Source of the DNA: Gammaproteobacteria bacterium
Lineage (GTDB): Bacteria; Pseudomonadota; Gammaproteobacteria; S012-40
Length of the DNA stretch: 64,000 nucleotides
Assembly (NCBI GenBank): GCA_029881255.1
Contig: JAOUMY010000014.1
Location: forward strand, 1 to 64,000
Reading direction: 5' to 3'
Shown here piece by piece: positions 21,720 through 52,045 of this stretch. Each line of letters begins with the position of its first letter. Position 1 is the first letter of the stretch. The notes under the pieces are model-generated. The model did no database searches, was not told where the DNA came from, and saw only the letters and a list, made by a program, of their open reading frames with translations. The translations under genes and the position numbers were made by a program.

Positions 21720-22484
21720 TTAAGCCGTCTTTTTAACCTGAGATTCTATCGGTTCTTTCTTGTTAAACGTGGTCAGAAACGCGGAAATCAATGCGCGTTC
21801 TTCCGTGCCGAGGTTAGTAAATTCCAGGGCGATATTTACTGTTCTTGATTCTTTTTCCGGTGGACGTTCAATGCGGACGATCTCAGTTTTAATTCTGATG
21901 ATCTTCTTGTTTATTTCAAATGAGAAATAGGGGTGATCGTATACGCGCCAATTGGCGACGGCCGTAGGTGAGCAGTTAATTAAACACCCACCCAGCGAAA
22001 AATTCTGCAAAGTGCTTTGCACTGTAATGCCATTAAGAGAAGCCGTAGCTTTTAACACGTCGAAAGGTGAGTGACGCGCCGCTGAGCGAGCTTCACTTTT
22101 TCCAACGGTGCGCTTGAGTGCTAGCAGAAGCGTGCGTGATGTGAATGGCTTTTTCACGAAGTTCTTGATACCTAAGCTAGCAGCCCTGGTCAGCAAGTCT
22201 GTAGTAGAGTGGCTGGACATCAACACGATGTGGGCTTTTTTGCATGAAGAGATGTTTTTCAAATCCTGGATCAATTCAAAACAATCTTTGTCCTGCAGGG
22301 TCGCGTCACAGAAGATCAAGTCGATGACTTTCTTGTTATTCGCAGCATTTATCGCTTCATTGGTCGTACCGGCTTGGATAGTTTCACCACACTGTTGGGC
22401 CTGGCGCAAGACAGACATCAGGGCCTTTCGCGCCCCCTGATTGTGGTCGATGATTAGGGCGACTTTTTGTGAATTTGTTGTCAT
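21720..22484 (-). CDS. Response regulator: receiver domain plus C-terminal PilZ-like domain
   Basis: 254 aa from the ATG at 22484, which has CAGG seven bases upstream; a longer frame to 22529 lacks support. The N-terminal receiver (residues ~7-125) has D13 in ALIIDH, the likely phospho-acceptor D60 in LIFCDA and K112 in VKKPF. The usual second acidic residue of the DD pair is His14. The C-terminal ~115 residues resemble PilZ: an RxxxR motif at R133-R137 and NFSLGG at 161-166, the c-di-GMP-binding pattern of that family. The protein may thus link phosphorylation to c-di-GMP. It is divergent from the dual-receiver gene across a gap that holds a CRP-like site. Outputs and partners are unknown. 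Confidence 0.75.
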   Translation of the reverse strand: MTTNSQKVALIIDHNQGARKALMSVLRQAQQCGETIQAGTTNEAINAANNKKVIDLIFCDATLQDKDCFELIQDLKNISSCKKAHIVLMSSHSTTDLLTRAASLGIKNFVKKPFTSRTLLLALKRTVGKSEARSAARHSPFDVLKATASLNGITVQSTLQNFSLGGCLINCSPTAVANWRVYDHPYFSFEINKKIIRIKTEIVRIERPPEKESRTVNIALEFTNLGTEERALISAFLTTFNKKEPIESQVKKTA

Positions 22485-22514
22485 TTTAAACCTGCGTATT
22501 GTTGAAAAGATTTG

Positions 22515-22547
22515 AAACAAAACTAGCACCTAGGTACTAGGTTGTTT
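22515..22547. promoter_or_regulatory. Operator-like site: three CTAG heptads in an imperfect dyad
   Basis: CTAG occurs at 22523, 22530 and 22537, exactly seven bases apart (CTAGCAC CTAGGTA CTAGG). The cluster is framed by AAACAA (22515-22520) and TTGTTT (22542-22547), so the whole stretch is an imperfect inverted repeat centred on ACCTAGGT. CTAG is generally rare in gammaproteobacterial DNA. It lies 31-63 bp upstream of the PilZ response-regulator start, a position suited to an operator or activator site. The binding protein is unknown. Confidence 0.45.
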
Positions 22548-22768: not shown

Positions 22769-23536
22769 ATGGATTCCCAACAGAAAAAGATCAATGCGCT
22801 CGTTGTGGATGATAGTAGTGAGTTTCGCAATCTGCTCAAAAGTCATTTACGCCAGCTCGGCGCCAATGTCGTCGGGGAAACGGATTCCGCGATTAATCTG
22901 CATCAAGTAATTGGCGATAAGGTCGTTGATCTCGTTTTTCTCGATATCAATATGCCCGGTCCTTCGGGTCTTGATGCATTGCCCGAATTGAAAAAGCAAT
23001 ATCCAGCAATTGGCGTTGTTATCATCTCGGGTGAGAACTCAGCCGAAACCGTCTCTGCCGCGCTTAAGGCTGGAGCAGACGACTATATCCTTAAGCCGTT
23101 TTCGAGTAAAAAGGTTCAAGAGGTAATAAACGATTTTGTAAAGACCAAACAAAACAAGCCACCATCTAAGGTGAACTGCTATGTGGTCGACGACGAACCG
23201 CTAGCGCTAGAGATGCTGGAAGTCCGTTTAACAAAAATGGGTGGTTCAGTAAGAAAGTTTTCTTCCATTCCGCAATTTTTTATCGCTATGGAAGATACCT
23301 TGCCGGATATTGTTTATCTCGATATTCAAATGCCGCAGGCAAATGGTTTTGACGTTTTGCAGAAAATAAAACGTCAGTGGCCACATCAATACGTCATTAT
23401 GGTTAGCGCTGAAAGCAGCATCGAGAATGTGAAAAAATCAATTGAGCTGCACTCAGATGGTTTTCTGGTAAAACCGGTGAGTATAAGAAAACTGGAAGAG
23501 AGTCTGGTGAACTACCGCAAGCTGCGCGGAAAATAA
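22769..23536 (+). CDS. Dual-receiver response regulator without output domain
   Basis: 255 aa made of two tandem CheY-like receivers and nothing else. Receiver 1 (about residues 8-128): acidic pair D14/D15, phospho-acceptor D59 in VFLDINMP, K in LKPFS. Receiver 2 (about 134-250): VVDDEP, phospho-acceptor D185 in VYLDIQMP, K in LVKPVS. Both active sites look intact. A protein with two receivers and no DNA-binding or enzymatic part must act by protein contact or as a phosphate sink. It is divergent from the receiver-PilZ gene. Its stop codon directly abuts the convergent hpnD-like stop at 23537. Confidence 0.8.
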   Translation: MDSQQKKINALVVDDSSEFRNLLKSHLRQLGANVVGETDSAINLHQVIGDKVVDLVFLDINMPGPSGLDALPELKKQYPAIGVVIISGENSAETVSAALKAGADDYILKPFSSKKVQEVINDFVKTKQNKPPSKVNCYVVDDEPLALEMLEVRLTKMGGSVRKFSSIPQFFIAMEDTLPDIVYLDIQMPQANGFDVLQKIKRQWPHQYVIMVSAESSIENVKKSIELHSDGFLVKPVSIRKLEESLVNYRKLRGK

Positions 23537-28964: not shown

Positions 28965-29070
28965 AGGCGGTTTTGCTCCGGATTCCATAAGCTGGCCAAG
29001 TATAACGTAAGCATAGGCGTATGCCGGATTTTTCCGTATCATAGCCACCAATTCAAGCGAGGGGATGCAT

Positions 29071-30126
29071 ATGGCGGGTGAGCAGCAGTACGATACGATA
29101 CGGGCCGTGGTTTGGGAGGACAACAAGCTCAAATTACTCGATCAGCGCCTCTTGCCTCACGAATACGTTTACAACACCTATACCAATGCCAAAGACACCG
29201 CTGACGCGATCCGCGATATGGTGGTACGTGGTGCGCCCGCAATCGGCGTAACGGCTGCCTATGCGGTGGTGTTGGCAGCAACTCATCGATTTGAAGTCTC
29301 GCCGCAGACCTGGCGTAAGGATATCGAAGAGGATTTGAGTGTGCTTGCTGCCTCACGTCCGACAGCGGTAAATCTGTTCTGGGCTATCGATGCCATGCGC
29401 ACAGTCATTGCCGGCAATCCAGACAAGCCTATTGTGACTTTACTCGAAGCCGCCCGTCGTATTCACAATGAAGATATCACCGCCAATCGTAAGATGGGTG
29501 AGATGGGCTCGGCCAAGATGTTAGATGCGACTGGCGTGTTAACCCATTGCAATACGGGCTCTCTCGCAACCGGTGGTTACGGCACCGCACTCGGTGTGAT
29601 TCGCAGTGCCTGGCGTCGTGGTCATTTGAAACACGTTTTTGCCGATGAGACTCGTCCTTGGTTGCAGGGTGCGCGGCTAACGGCGTGGGAGTTGGTGCAG
29701 GATGATATTCCGGTCACGTTGATTTCCGAAGGTGCGGCGGCACACTTGATGAAGCAGGGTAAGGTACAGTGGGTGGTGGTTGGTTCGGATCGCATTGCGG
29801 CGAATGGTGATGTGGCGAACAAAATCGGTACCTATAGTCTTGCGGTGAATGCGCGTCATCATGGTGTGAAGTTTATGGTGGTGGCACCGTCGACAACGGT
29901 GGATATGGATATTGCCAGTGGCGATGATATCCCCATCGAGGAGCGTTCTGAGATGGAGGTTCTGTGTCTGAATGGTCAGCGTATTGCGCCGGATGGGGCT
30001 ACTGCATGGAATCCTGCTTTTGATGTGACACCTGCGGAGTTAATCGATGTCATCGTGACGGAGAAGGGGCTCGTTGAGAATCCGACGCCGGAGAAAATGG
30101 CGAAGATGATGTCTGTTGGGGATTAG
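29071..30126 (+). CDS. mtnA: S-methyl-5-thioribose-1-phosphate isomerase
   Basis: Isomerises methylthioribose 1-phosphate to methylthioribulose 1-phosphate in methionine salvage. 351 aa from the ATG at 29071. GAGGGG lies six bases before that ATG, whereas the alternative ATG at 29065 would abut it. Motifs: [24 protein letters not shown] with the conserved Cys, and [21 protein letters not shown] with the conserved Asp. Divergent from mtaD across a ~106-bp gap. In Pseudomonas the next gene is gyrA; here 5 kb of other DNA intervenes. Confidence 0.96.
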
Positions 30127-30605
30127 TTTCGGTTTTTTTCTATTTTGCTGAACTTGATCGTTGAGCTAATGTTTTTTAACTTGCGTTTTGATATCTGTGA
30201 CGACGTTGGTTATCTAGGAGAATTCGCATCCACTTGCCGATAACATTGTTCGTTCGTTTTTTTACGTCAATACTTCATGGTTTTTTTGCATGGCACGAAC
30301 TTCAGCCGTACCGCTTTTTGCAGAATAGATTTCTGAACTGGGTTTCGCTCTAAAGTATAAGACGTTCCGCTAAAGTAAGCCTCTATTCGCTTTGAGTAAG
30401 AAGCGCTCGATTTTCTTTCCTTAAATTTCAATAGTTCACCGCTTACCACATTCTTTAAATGGTTTTGCATTGCAAACGAACTTGTTTCCCCAGTTGTAAA
30501 CAAAAGAAAAAGAATTCCCGCTAAATCTAATAACTGATGGTTTTAGTTCGTTATAGTCTAAACCGGACGACGCTAAAATTTACTCCCGCGATATAAGGAT
30601 ACCGA
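30127..30605. other. AT-rich intergenic region downstream of mtnA
   Basis: About 480 bp, AT-richer than the flanking genes. A minus-strand open frame at 30267-30503 (78 codons) has no recognisable domain and reads like Lys/Ser-rich random sequence; I do not support it as a gene. AAGGA at 30596-30600 serves the histidine kinase. This is the left edge of the insertion between mtnA and gyrA. Confidence 0.4.
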
Positions 30606-33600
30606 ATGGCAGAAAAGACAGTAAAACTGGGGTTGATGCCACCATTGAGTGGGTTAGTGGGTATCTATGGTAGTGATATTAGCCATGCCGGCCAGGTGGC
30701 ATGTCAGGAGATCAACGAAAACGGGGGTGTGCTTGGCCTTCCGCTTGAACTCATTATCGAAGATGACGGGAGTTTGCCTGATAGTGCTGTGCTTGCCGCT
30801 GAGAAGTTGGTGGTTGAACACAAATGCGTTGCCATCATCGGCAATCTGCTTTCGAATTCAAGAATCTCCGTTGCTTACCGCGTTGCCGAGCCACACAAAA
30901 TTCCCTATCTGAATTTTTCCTTCTATGAAGGCAGTATCTTGAGCCGCTATTTCTTCCACTATGCCGCATTACCCAATCAACAAATCGATCACATGATCCC
31001 CTACATGAAAAATACATATGGTCCTCGTATGTTTTTCGCGGGAAATAATTATGAATGGCCGCGGGGCTCGATACATGCGGCGAAAAAAATACTGGCCATA
31101 GCTGGCGGGACGGTGGTTGGAGAGGAGTATTGCCCGATTGGGGTCAGCAAGGACACCATAGAACGCTTGCTAGACGATGTGGAGAAAGAGGCGCCAGACG
31201 TGTTTGTGCCCTACTTTGCCGGAGCAGATCAAGTTTTGCTGCTTACGCGGTTTACGGAGCGTGGCTTAAAAGAAAAGATGGCAGTGGTTATGGGTCACTA
31301 TGACGAAATGATGGCCAGCCAACTGGCACCGGAGGTGCGCGAGGGGTTTTATTCCAGCAATACCTATTTCATGACTATCGATACGCCAGAAAATAAGAAT
31401 TACTTAACGCGACTGAGCAAACTTTCAGACATTGATGGTATATGGCCATATGGCAACGGCATACTGACAAATTTCGGCGAAGGGACTTATGCCTGTGTGA
31501 AGGCATTCGCAAAGGCCGCAAATGAGGCGGGATCGCTCGAATCTGAGGCGCTTGTCGAAGCCTTGCGCCGGGGCGTTGTAGAATCGCCTCAGGGGCTTAT
31601 ACACATGAATTCGGAGCATCACCATGCGAAGGTGAATACTTATCTTTCACGTTGTGATCGAGATGGTGTGTTCCAGATTATTGAGAAATTCGGTGCTATC
31701 GATCCGGTACTTCCTGAACGCTATAACCATCAGCGTATCACCCAGGACATTACACTAGAGGAGGAAATCCGATTACAAGCTCGGATGTTAGGGCAGTTGT
31801 CTGAAGCAGTCTTACTATTTGATGCACAAGACCGTTGCGTGATACATGCAAATGCGGGTGCGGAACGCATGTTTGGATACAAAAAGGGTGGAATGCTAGG
31901 TCTGCATTTGGCAAAGTTTAACGACCCGTTTGGTGATGATAGTTATTCGATATACGGTGAAATCATTCACGCACTGGAACGCAAGGGAGAATGGCATGGC
32001 GATATTAGAAATGCCCGTAGTGATGGCAATTTGTTTTGGTGTGCCTCGAGTGTGAGTGCGTTCACTCATCCGGTATATGGAGAAGTGTGGATGGCCGTTC
32101 ATCGAGATATTGACGATAAAAAGACGGCAGAGGCCGATCTTCGCGAGGCGTCGATGCTTAATGAAAAAATCATTGGAGAGTCACCCATTGGTATCGCAAT
32201 TTATGATGAAAGCGGTCAGTGCGTCGCGGCGAATGATGCAATAGCCCGTATGGTTGGCGCTAGTCACGAGGATGTACTGGCGCAAAACTATAATACGGTG
32301 CAGTCGTGGAAAGAAAGTGGTTTGCTCAGTTTGGTAAAGAGGGCACTGGCAAATAACCAGCGCGAACACATGGAGGCAAACGTAACGACTACTTTTGGAA
32401 ATTCAGTATTTTTCGATTTTCGTATTGTTCCTTTTGATATGCAAGAAAAACTATTCTTGCTGCTTATGGCGGATGATGTAACAGAAAGAAAGGAAACGGA
32501 AAATGCCCTGATTCGAAGCGAAGCAATGCTTGAGAAGGCTCAACAGATCGCACAACTCGGACACTGGCGTTATGACCCAGAGCTGAACGAAGTCAGTGGT
32601 TCAGAGACTTTGTATGAATTGTTTGGTATTGACCGAAATGTTTCGGTACTCGACCATTTCTTTGATTCGGTACACCCGGATGATCGAGGGAAAGTCGCGG
32701 TACTTTTGCCAACAGCGTTGGAAACGGGTAAGGGTTGGGATATTGAATATCGCATCTATGGAAAAGAACAGCAAATAAAGTGGGTACACACTGTAGGTGA
32801 CGTTGTTACGGACATGCAGGGAAACGTAAAAGAAGTTATCGGAACGGTCCAAGATATCAATATCCGTAAACTGGCACAGGCAGAACTAGCCAAACACCGT
32901 GATCATTTGGAAGAAATGGTGAAGGAAAGGACTAGGGCGTTACATGAAGCTCAGGATGAATTAGTACGTAGCGAAAGGCTCGCTACGCTGGGACAGTTAA
33001 CAGCGACAGTTTCTCATGAACTGCGAAACCCATTAGGCGCAATCAGGCCAGCATTGTATTATTTAAAAAAGCGATTTTTTGATGTCGATGATGAACGTGC
33101 GACCGTAGCACTGCAACGTATCGATAGAAATGTAGCGCGATGTGACCACATCATTGATGAGTTGCTCGATTTTACTCGTATCACTGATCTCGACCGGCAA
33201 TCAACAAACATTGATGCGTGGCTAAAGGAGATAGTAAATGAAATGGTCATCCCCGCAAAGATCTCTGTGTCTGTCGAACCTTGCTTGCAAGGCTTGGAAG
33301 TGAGTGTTGATAGTAATCGATTGCGCCGTGCTGTTATCAACGTGGTAGAAAATGCCTGTCATGCTCTACTTGACGAAACAAAGGAAGCAGGTCATATGGA
33401 AAACCGACAATTAAGAATTAGTACCAATAATTTAGAAGAGAAGGTTTCGATTTCTATCGCTGACAATGGCTGTGGTATACCGGAGAGTATTTTGGAGAAG
33501 GTTTTCGAGCCACTGTTTTCAACAAAGGGTTTTGGTGTTGGGCTTGGGATGTCAGCAGTGAAGCAGATTATGGAACAGCACGGTGGCGGCATATCTATTC

Positions 33601-33686
33601 AGAGTAAAGAAGGCGAGGGAACAACGGTTGAACTTTGGTTGCCAAAGTCAGAGAGCGTCGCGTATTCCAACCGTAGTGTTGCCTAG
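30606..33686 (+). CDS. Cytosolic sensor histidine kinase with AmiC-like ligand-binding domain and PAS repeats
   Basis: 1026 aa with no signal peptide and no membrane segment. Residues ~6-375 are a type I periplasmic-binding fold resembling the cytosolic amide sensor AmiC (LGLMPPLSGLVGIYGSDI, YEGSILSRYFFHYAALPNQ, YFMTIDTPENKNYL, SPQGLIHMNSEHHHAKVNTYL). Three PAS domains follow (about 385-510, 515-640, 645-765; the last with VHPDDRGK and PAC-like GTVQDINIRK), then a coiled coil. The HisKA domain has the phospho-acceptor H804 in VSHELRNPLG, and the HATPase has the N box ENACHAL, DNGCGIPES and GFGVGLGMS. No response regulator is adjacent, so it is an orphan kinase. It likely senses a small cytoplasmic amide, amino acid or urea-like ligand; the ligand is inference. 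Confidence 0.88.
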   Translation: MAEKTVKLGLMPPLSGLVGIYGSDISHAGQVACQEINENGGVLGLPLELIIEDDGSLPDSAVLAAEKLVVEHKCVAIIGNLLSNSRISVAYRVAEPHKIPYLNFSFYEGSILSRYFFHYAALPNQQIDHMIPYMKNTYGPRMFFAGNNYEWPRGSIHAAKKILAIAGGTVVGEEYCPIGVSKDTIERLLDDVEKEAPDVFVPYFAGADQVLLLTRFTERGLKEKMAVVMGHYDEMMASQLAPEVREGFYSSNTYFMTIDTPENKNYLTRLSKLSDIDGIWPYGNGILTNFGEGTYACVKAFAKAANEAGSLESEALVEALRRGVVESPQGLIHMNSEHHHAKVNTYLSRCDRDGVFQIIEKFGAIDPVLPERYNHQRITQDITLEEEIRLQARMLGQLSEAVLLFDAQDRCVIHANAGAERMFGYKKGGMLGLHLAKFNDPFGDDSYSIYGEIIHALERKGEWHGDIRNARSDGNLFWCASSVSAFTHPVYGEVWMAVHRDIDDKKTAEADLREASMLNEKIIGESPIGIAIYDESGQCVAANDAIARMVGASHEDVLAQNYNTVQSWKESGLLSLVKRALANNQREHMEANVTTTFGNSVFFDFRIVPFDMQEKLFLLLMADDVTERKETENALIRSEAMLEKAQQIAQLGHWRYDPELNEVSGSETLYELFGIDRNVSVLDHFFDSVHPDDRGKVAVLLPTALETGKGWDIEYRIYGKEQQIKWVHTVGDVVTDMQGNVKEVIGTVQDINIRKLAQAELAKHRDHLEEMVKERTRALHEAQDELVRSERLATLGQLTATVSHELRNPLGAIRPALYYLKKRFFDVDDERATVALQRIDRNVARCDHIIDELLDFTRITDLDRQSTNIDAWLKEIVNEMVIPAKISVSVEPCLQGLEVSVDSNRLRRAVINVVENACHALLDETKEAGHMENRQLRISTNNLEEKVSISIADNGCGIPESILEKVFEPLFSTKGFGVGLGMSAVKQIMEQHGGGISIQSKEGEGTTVELWLPKSESVAYSNRSVA

Positions 33687-33698
33687 GGAGATTATAGG

Positions 33699-34856
33699 TT
33701 AGGCTTTATCCTTGAACAAAGTCCCAAGCATGTCATCCTCAGCCTGAATCATCTTCATCATAGCCTTGGCATGCTGCTCAGTAGAGATCAGATTGACTGC
33801 CTGTTCTTCAAGATTGACGTTAGAGCCCTCAAGAGCCCCTGATTGAATAGAGCCCGTGGTCGAGCTGTTATAGATAGGATCGCCAGAACTCGCTGACGCC
33901 GAGAATAAACCATCGCCCTCCTGGCTCAAGCCCTGAGGGTTAGAGAAACCCGCAACTGCTAAACGTCCAACCGTCACTGTTGAACCGTCTGCATACTCTG
34001 CGACGACATTACCTTCACCGTCGACGCTCAGGTTGGAAAGCTCAGCAACCTGGTTACCATCCTGGCTGATACCATTTACCGCAAAAGGAGAACCGGTCTG
34101 GGTGACATCATCGGCATTCACGTTCAAATTCATTGTGGCCGCGCCATTACTTGGCGTATAGCCCGGCAAGGAAACGCCACCGCTCGGTGAAGTCAGATTG
34201 CCTGAGGTATCAAACGTCAGTGTCTGCGCACCGCCGACAGGATTGCCGTCGACCTGGGTAAACATCTCCACCTGATTAGGTGTCGCAGTCTTACGGAAGA
34301 AAAAGTCTACCTGATGCTGGCTACCAAGACTGTCATACGCGGTTGTCGATGTCTGGTTGTTAAACGTCGCAGGATCCGTTGAATCGAAAGCACCGCTTGG
34401 CACTGACCCTGTCGCATCGATATTCAGATTGAGATTGATATTGCCTGTCGCTTGAGGCTGATGTGCGCCGGTGTTCACGTTCAGCGCCACCGGCGTGCCC
34501 GCACTTTGTGGCGTAAAGCCCATCAAGCGTTGGCCCTGGCTGTTAGTCAGATAGCCCTCGCGGTCAGCGGAAAAGGCACCAGCACGGGTAAAACTTTGTT
34601 TGCCATCGCGGCTGACCTGAAAATAACCATTTCCGCTAATAGCGAGATCTGTACCTATCGAGGTGTTTTGTATCACGCCGTTAGACGTGGAATTACGAAT
34701 TCCGGATACTTTGACGCCCTGGCTATTCGGAACGGTCGTGTACTCCGCCCGAGCCTGCTTAAAGCCTGTCGTTTGACTGTTGGCGATATTGTTGGCCGTG
34801 GTACTCAAGCGCTTGTAGGCCGCATTGAGTCCGGTACTGGCTATCCGGGAAATCAT
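33699..34856 (-). CDS. flgE: Flagellar hook protein FlgE-like, orphan
   Basis: 385 aa from the ATG at 34856 (a GTG at 34862 is also possible; GAGG lies upstream). The N-terminus ISRIASTGLNAAYKRLSTTANNIANSQTTGFKQ is the rod/hook/HAP signature, and AISGNGYFQVSRDG and the C-terminal NVNLEEQAVNLISTEQHAKAMMKMIQAEDDM are typical of hook-family proteins. The middle (about 120-300) is Asn/Thr/Gly-rich and resembles FlgE D1/D2 domains. No other flagellar gene is within 64 kb. It converges on the histidine kinase (12-bp gap) and is divergent from gyrA. A second, specialised hook-like filament protein or a displaced flgE are both possible. Confidence 0.82.
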   Translation of the reverse strand: MISRIASTGLNAAYKRLSTTANNIANSQTTGFKQARAEYTTVPNSQGVKVSGIRNSTSNGVIQNTSIGTDLAISGNGYFQVSRDGKQSFTRAGAFSADREGYLTNSQGQRLMGFTPQSAGTPVALNVNTGAHQPQATGNINLNLNIDATGSVPSGAFDSTDPATFNNQTSTTAYDSLGSQHQVDFFFRKTATPNQVEMFTQVDGNPVGGAQTLTFDTSGNLTSPSGGVSLPGYTPSNGAATMNLNVNADDVTQTGSPFAVNGISQDGNQVAELSNLSVDGEGNVVAEYADGSTVTVGRLAVAGFSNPQGLSQEGDGLFSASASSGDPIYNSSTTGSIQSGALEGSNVNLEEQAVNLISTEQHAKAMMKMIQAEDDMLGTLFKDKA

Positions 34857-34892
34857 GTTCACTAACCTCGGAATATAACTTCTCTATGTCGT

Positions 34893-50447: not shown

Positions 50448-50477
50448 GCAAAAAAGCGCCACACGGCGCTTTTTTGC
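50448..50477. terminator. Bidirectional Rho-independent terminator
   Basis: GCAAAAAAGCGCC (50448-50460) and GGCGCTTTTTTGC (50465-50477) form a 13-bp stem with an ACAC loop; the A-run and T-run make it work in both directions. It ends the pyrF/comEA-like unit and lies before the polysaccharide locus. Confidence 0.9.
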
Positions 50478-50500
50478 TTTCTGACAATTGTGTAGCTGGG

Positions 50501-52045
50501 ATGATAATTCAAAAACCTTTTTTCTTACCTACTCTTTTTTTATTTTTCTACGCCTTTGGCTGTTATGCAGCTCAAGACGCTTCTGAATCTCTTGTTACCC
50601 AAATAGATGGTAGATATTCTTTTTCGTACGACCATCTGCTTCTACCGCAACAGGAAAGAATGGGATTGCTGGGTGGGAATTATCTAGTCAGTATTCACCC
50701 CAATTTTCGATTTGGCCTGGGCGTGTATGGTGCGGTATATGGCGAGCGTGGCGGATTTTTTACTGGTGGGTTTGAGTCAACGCTGCATTTTCCTCTAACG
50801 GAGCATATCTATTTCGACAGTGGTTTCTTTGTCGGTGGTGGCGGTGGCGGAGCGGCTCCACAAGGGGGTGGGCTTATGTTCAGGCCGCACCTCGATTTTG
50901 GCTTAAATTTGGGTAAATATCTGAGTCTTGGTATTGGGTACAGTATCGTGCGTTTCCCCAATGGCAAGATTCGTAGCGATCAGGCAACGATACATGTCCA
51001 GCGATCATTCTCTGCATTTATTTATCCGGGTATGCAGCGACAGTCGGTGGGAATTCTCGAAGGTATAAATCTAAATCGCCATCGCCGGCTGTTTGCACTG
51101 CAAATTAACGCCTACTTTCCCGACCGTGGCACGCCAGGCCGGGACGGCTTACCCTTAGATAGTCGCATGGACGTAGTCGGTGTGCGTTGGCGCGAGGCGA
51201 TGAGTGGGCGATGGTGGGGCGATTTCGAAACCGGCGGCGCCTGGGGTGGCGGCGTCGACGGCTTTGCGCAGGTTTTTATTGGCAGTGCCTATGAGTGGCC
51301 ACTTTTGAAAACCGTTTCATTTCTGACTGGATTGCAGCTTGGCGCGGCGGGAGGTGGAGATGTGCATACCGGGGGCGGCATGTTGGCAAGATTCAATCTT
51401 GCTGGTGTAACCGCCTTGTCCTCGCAATGGCAATTCATTCTGGAAGCGGGGCGAATAGTTGCCGTCGATGGGGAGTTTCGCGCATGGGCGCTAACCGGGG
51501 CGTTGGCATACGACTATGATGTGCTGCGTCCCAGCAACAACAAATCCGCTAAGAATTTCGAAGCAAATCAGTTACAATGGGCCGATTTTAGACTTCGCGC
51601 AGGTATGCAGCGCTATGCCCGGTACTGGTATGGCAATGGGCGTAAAGACAGTGGTTTGGCGCCGGTCCCCGTAGACCAGGTTCATCTGAAAATTGATGCA
51701 TTCGCCACAGAGTCATGGTTTGTGTCTGGGCAGGCATTGGCGGCATACGATGGTGGTGCTGGTGGCTACGCCGTAGGTTTGGTTGGCAGCGGGTTGCGTT
51801 TGTCACTTACACCGGCGATCTATACCTCGGCAGAATTGCTCGTCGGTGCAGCCGGGGGCGGCGGGATCGCAGTGGGTGGCGGGATGATAGTGCAACCGAT
51901 GCTCGGCTTGGGATATCGCATTAAACAGACCTGGAGTGTAGAACTCAGCGCGGGATATATCCATGCCTATAGCGGGGCATTGGATGCCGCGATTATGGAT
52001 TTAGCAATAGGTTATGAATTTTCTGTTCCCCATGGAAAGAAATAA
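50501..52045 (+). CDS. Predicted outer-membrane beta-barrel with Gly-rich repeat motifs
   Basis: 514 aa from the ATG at 50501; a start at 50474 would lie inside the terminator. A signal peptide (FFLPTLFLFFYAFGCYA) precedes a body of aromatic-alternating strands and many Gly turns. A motif of the form GAAGGG-x4-GGG-M recurs near 50831-50880, 51341-51384 and 51841-51890 (for example GAAGGGDVHTGGGM), and a related GGAWGGGVDG lies near 51230. Six bases separate it from the export gene. It may be an outer-membrane partner of the polysaccharide machinery, but no family such as Wzi or AlgE is recognised. Confidence 0.65.
   Translation: MIIQKPFFLPTLFLFFYAFGCYAAQDASESLVTQIDGRYSFSYDHLLLPQQERMGLLGGNYLVSIHPNFRFGLGVYGAVYGERGGFFTGGFESTLHFPLTEHIYFDSGFFVGGGGGGAAPQGGGLMFRPHLDFGLNLGKYLSLGIGYSIVRFPNGKIRSDQATIHVQRSFSAFIYPGMQRQSVGILEGINLNRHRRLFALQINAYFPDRGTPGRDGLPLDSRMDVVGVRWREAMSGRWWGDFETGGAWGGGVDGFAQVFIGSAYEWPLLKTVSFLTGLQLGAAGGGDVHTGGGMLARFNLAGVTALSSQWQFILEAGRIVAVDGEFRAWALTGALAYDYDVLRPSNNKSAKNFEANQLQWADFRLRAGMQRYARYWYGNGRKDSGLAPVPVDQVHLKIDAFATESWFVSGQALAAYDGGAGGYAVGLVGSGLRLSLTPAIYTSAELLVGAAGGGGIAVGGGMIVQPMLGLGYRIKQTWSVELSAGYIHAYSGALDAAIMDLAIGYEFSVPHGKK

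Follow-up and report, generated by a model that had tools for sequence, protein, structure and literature searches.

The gene at 30606-33686 (+) of the window (the whole 64,000-nucleotide stretch of DNA analysed here) encodes a soluble sensor histidine kinase in which an N-terminal binding-protein-type domain precedes three PAS domains and the kinase core. This domain has the fold of AmiC and UrtA, matches the ligand pocket of neither, and is a member of a separate family of N-terminal fusions rather than a one-off. Considering its features together with the gene arrangements of its relatives, we think it reasonably probable that the protein is a ligand-gated kinase feeding a tandem-receiver regulator encoded at C9 or C1 of the same genome.

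Gene model, domain order and fold

The open reading frame list gives a complete, ATG-started frame of 1026 aa. A ribosome-binding-site-like AAGGA (30595-30599, +) ends six bases 5′ of the ATG, and an in-frame TAA (30594-30596, +) lies 12 nt 5′ of it; because this stop precedes the start codon, a longer gene with a signal peptide is excluded. Within the protein itself no run of 19 residues exceeds 1.3 in Kyte-Doolittle hydropathy; for a membrane kinase from the same genome the value is as high as 2.4. The gene is flanked upstream by an S-methylthioribose-1-phosphate isomerase-like (mtnA-like) gene (29065-30126, +) and downstream by a flagellar flgE-like gene identified by Pfam (33699-34862, -), and the kinase is therefore without an adjoining response regulator. 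These results bear out the original prediction of an orphan kinase with a cytosolic AmiC-like sensor, including its claims that there is no signal peptide and no adjacent partner regulator. Elsewhere in the window, in a gene-dense region, a long open reading frame (50474-52045, +, 523 aa) has no Pfam match at 1e-3.

The predicted fusion of an AmiC-like domain to three PAS domains and a histidine kinase was recovered in full by Pfam. The AmiC/UrtA-like small-molecule binding domain (aa 1-377; 30606-31736, +) is matched by Peripla_BP_6 (3.9e-60, aa 5-354) and Peripla_BP_5 (3e-56), which together cover aa 5-376. PAS-type matches follow at aa 400-502 (PAS_9; 31803-32111, +), aa 521-613 (PAS; 32166-32444, +) and aa 665-748 (PAS_3; 32598-32849, +). 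The HisKA dimerisation and phosphoacceptor domain (1.4e-13, aa 795-860; 32988-33185, +) contains the phosphoacceptor His804 within GQLTATVSHELRNPL (codon 33015-33017, +; assigned by motif and numbered from the alignment), and the HATPase_c catalytic domain (9.9e-26, aa 902-1015; 33309-33650, +) completes the sensor histidine kinase.

An AlphaFold2 model of the aa 1-377 domain, built on an alignment of 43 related domains out of 67 rows selected, has a mean pLDDT of 93 and a pTM of 0.92. Compared with solved structures, the model matches AmiC (1pea; Z 48.8, rmsd 1.8 over 358 residues) and urea-binding structures (8tg1, Z 48.8; UrtA 8hic, 48.5; 7s6e, 48.2) equally well, and 1qo0, AmiC with AmiR, is also among the matches. 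A sequence profile searched against the PDB returns urea-binding chains first (8tg1, 1.2e-48; 7s6e, 1.5e-43) and then AmiC (6e-38), and the protein scores 157 bits against the NCBIfam urea_ABC_UrtA model, whose cut-off is 493. Pfam, the model and the structural matches thus agree on a type I periplasmic-binding-protein fold of the AmiC/UrtA type. Neither of the two findings named beforehand as able to overturn the prediction, a different N-terminal fold or a signal peptide in a longer gene model, was made. Because AmiC and UrtA are tied in fold, the description ‘AmiC-like’ is correct for fold and cytosolic location, yet the domain is equally UrtA-like in fold, somewhat nearer to urea-binding chains in sequence, and like neither in its pocket.

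The binding pocket and the fusion family

The proposed comparison of pocket residues with AmiC and UrtA was made by alignment, rather than from coordinates. On this basis the pocket of the aa 1-377 domain comprises L81, S83, L102, N103, S105, F106, Y107, E108, Y149, E150, W151, A205 and H231. Nine residues lie near urea in UrtA, of which eight are reported to be conserved (Trp120, Ser122, Tyr141, Gln144, Glu146, Tyr190, Asn246 and Ser274), and mutation of Trp120, Ser122, Gln144, Tyr190 or Asn246 is reported to strongly lower or abolish binding (PMC10392092). In the alignment, three of the eight are kept (Ser122 as Ser83, Glu146 as Glu108 and Tyr190 as Tyr149) and five are replaced (Trp120 by L81, Tyr141 by L102, Gln144 by F106, Asn246 by A205 and Ser274 by H231). 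The same five replacements occur in all 94 family domains, with the exception of one row at the Asn246 position. A separate, lone UrtA is encoded in the same genome before urt- and urease-like genes; it has a signal-peptide-like N-terminus, as read by eye, and in the alignment it retains the urea residue set. The AmiC pocket, which we take to consist of Tyr83, Ser85, Tyr104, Thr106 (Asn in 1qnl), Tyr150, Tyr152 and Thr233, fares no better: the Ser and Tyr150 are kept, and Tyr83, Tyr104, position 106, Tyr152 and Thr233 become L, L, S, W and H.

It could be argued that the domain is nonetheless a cytosolic receptor for urea or short amides, comparable to AmiC with its amides, and that it signals nitrogen status. 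Its closest folds and sequences are AmiC and the urea-binding proteins, Ser83, Tyr149 and Glu108 correspond to residues of the urea pocket, and the genome has a UrtA beside urt- and urease-like genes. Yet three of the replaced positions, Trp120, Gln144 and Asn246, are among those whose mutation is reported to be so damaging to UrtA, and the AmiC positions Tyr83, Tyr104 and Thr/Asn106 differ as well; we consider this reading quite improbable, and urea or an amide is disfavoured as the ligand by the replaced residues. Since most of the pocket residues of both UrtA and AmiC are replaced, the fused domain is very probably not a urea sensor, and we infer from the alignment that its ligand is neither urea nor a simple amide.

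Searching a phylum sample of 398 genomes for relatives of the aa 1-377 domain gave, besides the window protein, 19 matches at 62-69% identity, all opening long open reading frames: 18 of these frames measure 980-1164 aa, and the remaining one is a partial match of 549 aa. The remaining matches listed are at most 32% identical and nearly all lie in frames of ~400-500 aa; among the matches listed, the lone binding proteins of the sample do not exceed this 32%. A scan of genome contigs, in which loci were selected by the peptides AGNNYEW and [MI]AVVM[GA]HY, detected 150 relatives, and 80 of these loci were retained. At all 80 the domain is N-terminal in a larger open reading frame, usually no more than 30 residues from the assigned start, with a few of the loci ending at contig borders. 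The records include isolates of Thioalkalivibrio, Methylotuvimicrobium, Methylomonas, Magnetospirillum, Simplicispira, Azoarcus and Hydrogenovibrio; further records are metagenome bins assigned to several other phyla, in which binning errors are possible. The window protein shares the features of this family: N-terminal position, fusion to PAS and output modules, and the pocket LSLNSFYEYEWAH.

The outputs of the family are diverse. Typing with local seeds divided the 80 loci into 37 kinases, 37 GGDEF or GGDEF-EAL proteins and six that were cut or untyped; among these six, Pfam identifies L086 as a HisKA_2 kinase and finds GAF, PAS and HisKA in L093 before the contig ends. GGDEF is present in 44 of the 94-domain set, mostly with AGDEF-type signatures, and 31 of these 44 are GGDEF-EAL proteins that end in BLUF; L095 (582-3899) is one of the 31 loci in which an AmiC-like domain, PAS, GGDEF, EAL and a C-terminal BLUF are found in one protein. 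Thirteen of the 22 hybrid kinases in the same set end in Hpt. Of the genomes in the window's own family, G006 and G008 encode GGDEF-EAL members and G010 encodes a hybrid kinase.

The pocket, by contrast with these outputs, hardly varies. Over the 94 domains, identity reaches 98% or more at 12 of the 13 pocket-aligned positions, compared with 96 of all 377 columns (hypergeometric, 4e-7). Conservation at 145-151 and 225-232 is partly selected, because the loci were chosen by the two peptide patterns; when the columns within those patterns are excluded, eight of nine pocket positions remain at least 98% identical (6e-5). The same pocket residues accompany kinases, hybrid kinases and c-di-GMP enzymes alike, and in a tree of the domain (98 rows) the output label switches at least 16 times across groups with the pocket constant. 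Fourteen rows from outside the scan have the same pocket, apart from one Asp at Tyr149.

This conservation bears on whether the domain is a structural relic or a ligand-free protein docking module, with the PAS domains as the real sensors. Such a role would fit with the three PAS domains that stand between the domain and the kinase, which may carry the dominant signal, and with AmiC itself, which works through binding the protein AmiR (the 1qo0 match). A relic, however, would lose conserved cleft positions, and the positions lining the cleft are more conserved than the domain as a whole across 94 domains and four output classes; we therefore regard this alternative as unlikely, although the domain may still have a docking role that depends on ligand.

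Because the pocket hardly varies while the outputs do, the ligand would be common to all members, and the simplest reading, which we propose from the sequence comparisons, is that one ligand is sensed in the cytosol. More broadly, and tentatively, at somewhat less than even likelihood, an unrecognised intracellular signal molecule might be read by one receptor module across several phyla and passed to unrelated outputs, with several dispersed kinases of the window's genome, all of one transmitter type, converging on tandem-receiver regulators. The outputs so connected, put forward just as tentatively, would be kinases, Hpt hybrid kinases, c-di-GMP enzymes and c-di-GMP enzymes with blue-light domains. 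If so, a ligand screen on a single purified domain would at once give the signal read by dozens of kinases and c-di-GMP enzymes across iron oxidisers, methanotrophs, magnetotactic bacteria and sulfur bacteria.

Gene surroundings give no hint of the ligand. The 80 loci have no metabolic neighbour in common, and the recurrent adjoining genes, in a neighbour table that covers all but two of the loci (L094 and L117), code for receivers, REC-HD proteins and further kinases. In seven kinase loci (L058, L078, L083, L085, L087, L088 and L089) the next gene on the same strand encodes a REC protein from a single cluster, and the two cluster members tested (L083 and L088) are REC-HD_5 proteins of the HD-GYP type. 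A single-receiver protein is next in another seven loci (L056, L069, L076, L079, L080, L081 and L090). In the Magnetococcales bins L083, L087, L088 and L089, AmiC-like hybrid kinases form part of arrays, preceded by a gene of the kinase cluster and followed by a REC protein. In Magnetospirillum-type genomes, a gene of ~870-908 aa occurs near the AmiC-like-GGDEF-EAL-BLUF gene (adjoining in L125 and L132, nearby in L128 and L104); the L125 gene, which alone was tested, has cyclic-nucleotide-binding, metallo-beta-lactamase-fold and hemerythrin domains.

Transmitter type and candidate partner regulators

The transmitter of the window kinase (GQLTATVSHELRNPLGAIRPAL) differs from those of nearly all other fusions, which mostly have HE[LI]RTP-type boxes. 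In a transmitter tree, from which one of 53 kinase sequences dropped out, it groups with the C9, C6, C1 and C10 kinases of its own genome, with kinases of G006, G008 and G501, and with both kinases of locus L066; support for this fork is 84 without L090 and 98 with it. The nearest paralogue in its own genome is C9 (SH-aLRT 94). Residues at DHp positions H+7, +11 and +12, which we take from EnvZ work to be the specificity positions, agree with this grouping and are not treated as proof of it.

The AmiC-like kinase of locus L066 is the sister of the window protein in the tree of the AmiC domain (98/83). Identity between the two is 66% for aa 1-515 and 53% for the transmitter, and their middle domains differ. 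The gene order at L066 is a kinase, the AmiC-like kinase, a 241-aa two-receiver protein and a further receiver protein, and the two-receiver gene begins 6 bases past the stop of the AmiC-like kinase. Across the transmitter type, six of ten rows adjoin a tandem-receiver regulator (own-genome C9, G008:C43, G006:C172, G501:C42 and both L066 kinases), and the remaining four (the window kinase and own-genome C6, C1 and C10) are orphans. A REC-PAS-GGDEF protein adjoins the G501 regulator. Together with the GGDEF domains and the HD-GYP-type neighbours of the fusion family, this makes c-di-GMP a possible output of the window kinase.

Transmitter and regulator also occur together when 13 family genomes are searched with both queries. 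Only four of them, G000, G006, G007 and G008, give a transmitter match of 256 bits or more (next-best, 148 bits), and the same four of 13 have a full-length tandem-receiver regulator of at least 126 bits (next-best, 74 bits). The Fisher value for this co-occurrence, 0.0014, overstates independence, given the relatedness of these genomes; three of the 13 genomes tested had also supplied part of the regulator profile. Among the eight full-length regulators seen, two (own-genome C1 and G006:C430) lack a neighbouring kinase of this type, and the neighbour of the G007:C56 regulator is kinase-like without the motif.

The window's genome has two such regulators: one (C9:165.7 kb; L048:5699-6400) adjoins the C9 kinase, and the other (C1:121.7 kb; L144:6684-7379) stands alone. 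They are 28-32% identical to the L066 regulator, which makes them no more than putative orthologues of it; the C9 regulator, in addition, already has a neighbouring kinase. Two observations concern the other members of this transmitter type. The C9 kinase and tandem-receiver pair (L048:5699-7979) and a pair of the same kind in G008 (L017:1505-4920) both adjoin purA-, hisZ- and hflC-like genes, and at own-genome C10 (L051:5515-7907) a short kinase of this type directly follows a 373-aa gene, presumably a FIST-type sensor.

Regulators closer to the kinase have also been considered. The original prediction named a dual receiver at 22769-23536 (+), which has two intact receiver domains, as a conceivable partner, and either it or a receiver-PilZ protein (21720-22529) could in principle be the cognate regulator, 7-9 kb away on the same contig. 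The dual receiver does have the general build of the L066 regulator. It is, however, 17% identical to that regulator, compared with 27-31% for other members of the regulator family, and a five-row regulator profile at E <= 1e-18 returns two other loci of the genome and not the dual receiver; a six-row profile returns it, but that profile included its sequence. The dual receiver also matches AmiR_N weakly (7e-4, short of the Pfam cut-off), which we take as ordinary receiver similarity. We find it very doubtful that either nearby protein is the cognate regulator, and the dual receiver is rejected as the leading partner. Given its low identity and its absence from the five-row matches, the C9 or C1 tandem-receiver regulator is, on sequence grounds, the better guess.

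Proposed mechanism and relation to known systems

In the mechanism we propose, the AmiC/UrtA-like domain at the N-terminus takes up an intracellular small molecule into the cleft that separates its two lobes. When the cleft closes, the change would travel along the three PAS domains and a coiled linker and reach the HisKA/HATPase core; the core would in turn set the phosphorylation of His804; the direction of this regulation may be either. The phosphate would then pass to a stand-alone tandem-receiver regulator encoded elsewhere, with C9:165.7 kb and C1:121.7 kb as the candidates, and through it to a physiological response. The architecture originally predicted thus stands; the ligand is likely a different one, a better partner candidate has emerged, and the family is much wider.

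It is mainly as extracytosolic receptors that binding-protein domains are known. Kinases whose cytosolic sensor domains are of the binding-protein type are nonetheless known in general, as binding-protein Pfam families are reported to serve also as sensor domains of cytosolic signalling proteins (PMC9602780). Full-text literature searches, judged by titles and abstract openings, found no fusion of an AmiC- or UrtA-like domain with a kinase or with GGDEF-EAL, and within the literature searched a fusion family with a fixed pocket and many outputs appears to be undescribed.

Comparison with characterized proteins places the kinase between several known systems. AmiC of Pseudomonas aeruginosa (PDB 1pea, 1qnl and 1qo0) has the same fold and, like the window protein, acts in the cytosol without a signal peptide. 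Whereas AmiC stands alone and controls AmiR, an antiterminator, through binding, the aa 1-377 domain serves as the input of a kinase, and no AmiR- or AmiE-like gene adjoins the kinase gene. UrtA, the urea-binding protein of an ABC transporter (PDB 8hic, 7s6e and 8tg1), also has this fold (Z 48-49) and provides the best sequence matches, but it is periplasmic and has a signal peptide, neither of which is true of the window protein, and the urtBCDE linkage of UrtA has no counterpart in transporter genes beside the kinase. The AmiC-like-PAS-GGDEF-EAL proteins, often with BLUF, and the AmiC-like-PAS-HK-REC-Hpt proteins have the same N-terminal domain and pocket, but their output modules differ from, and are unrelated to, those of the window kinase. 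Finally, soluble multi-PAS histidine kinases with an HELRNPL box (the AtoS, ZraS, FixL and NifL NCBIfam models) are alike in kinase core and PAS arrangement; the window protein falls far below every equivalog cut-off of these models and, unlike them, has an additional N-terminal ligand-binding domain.
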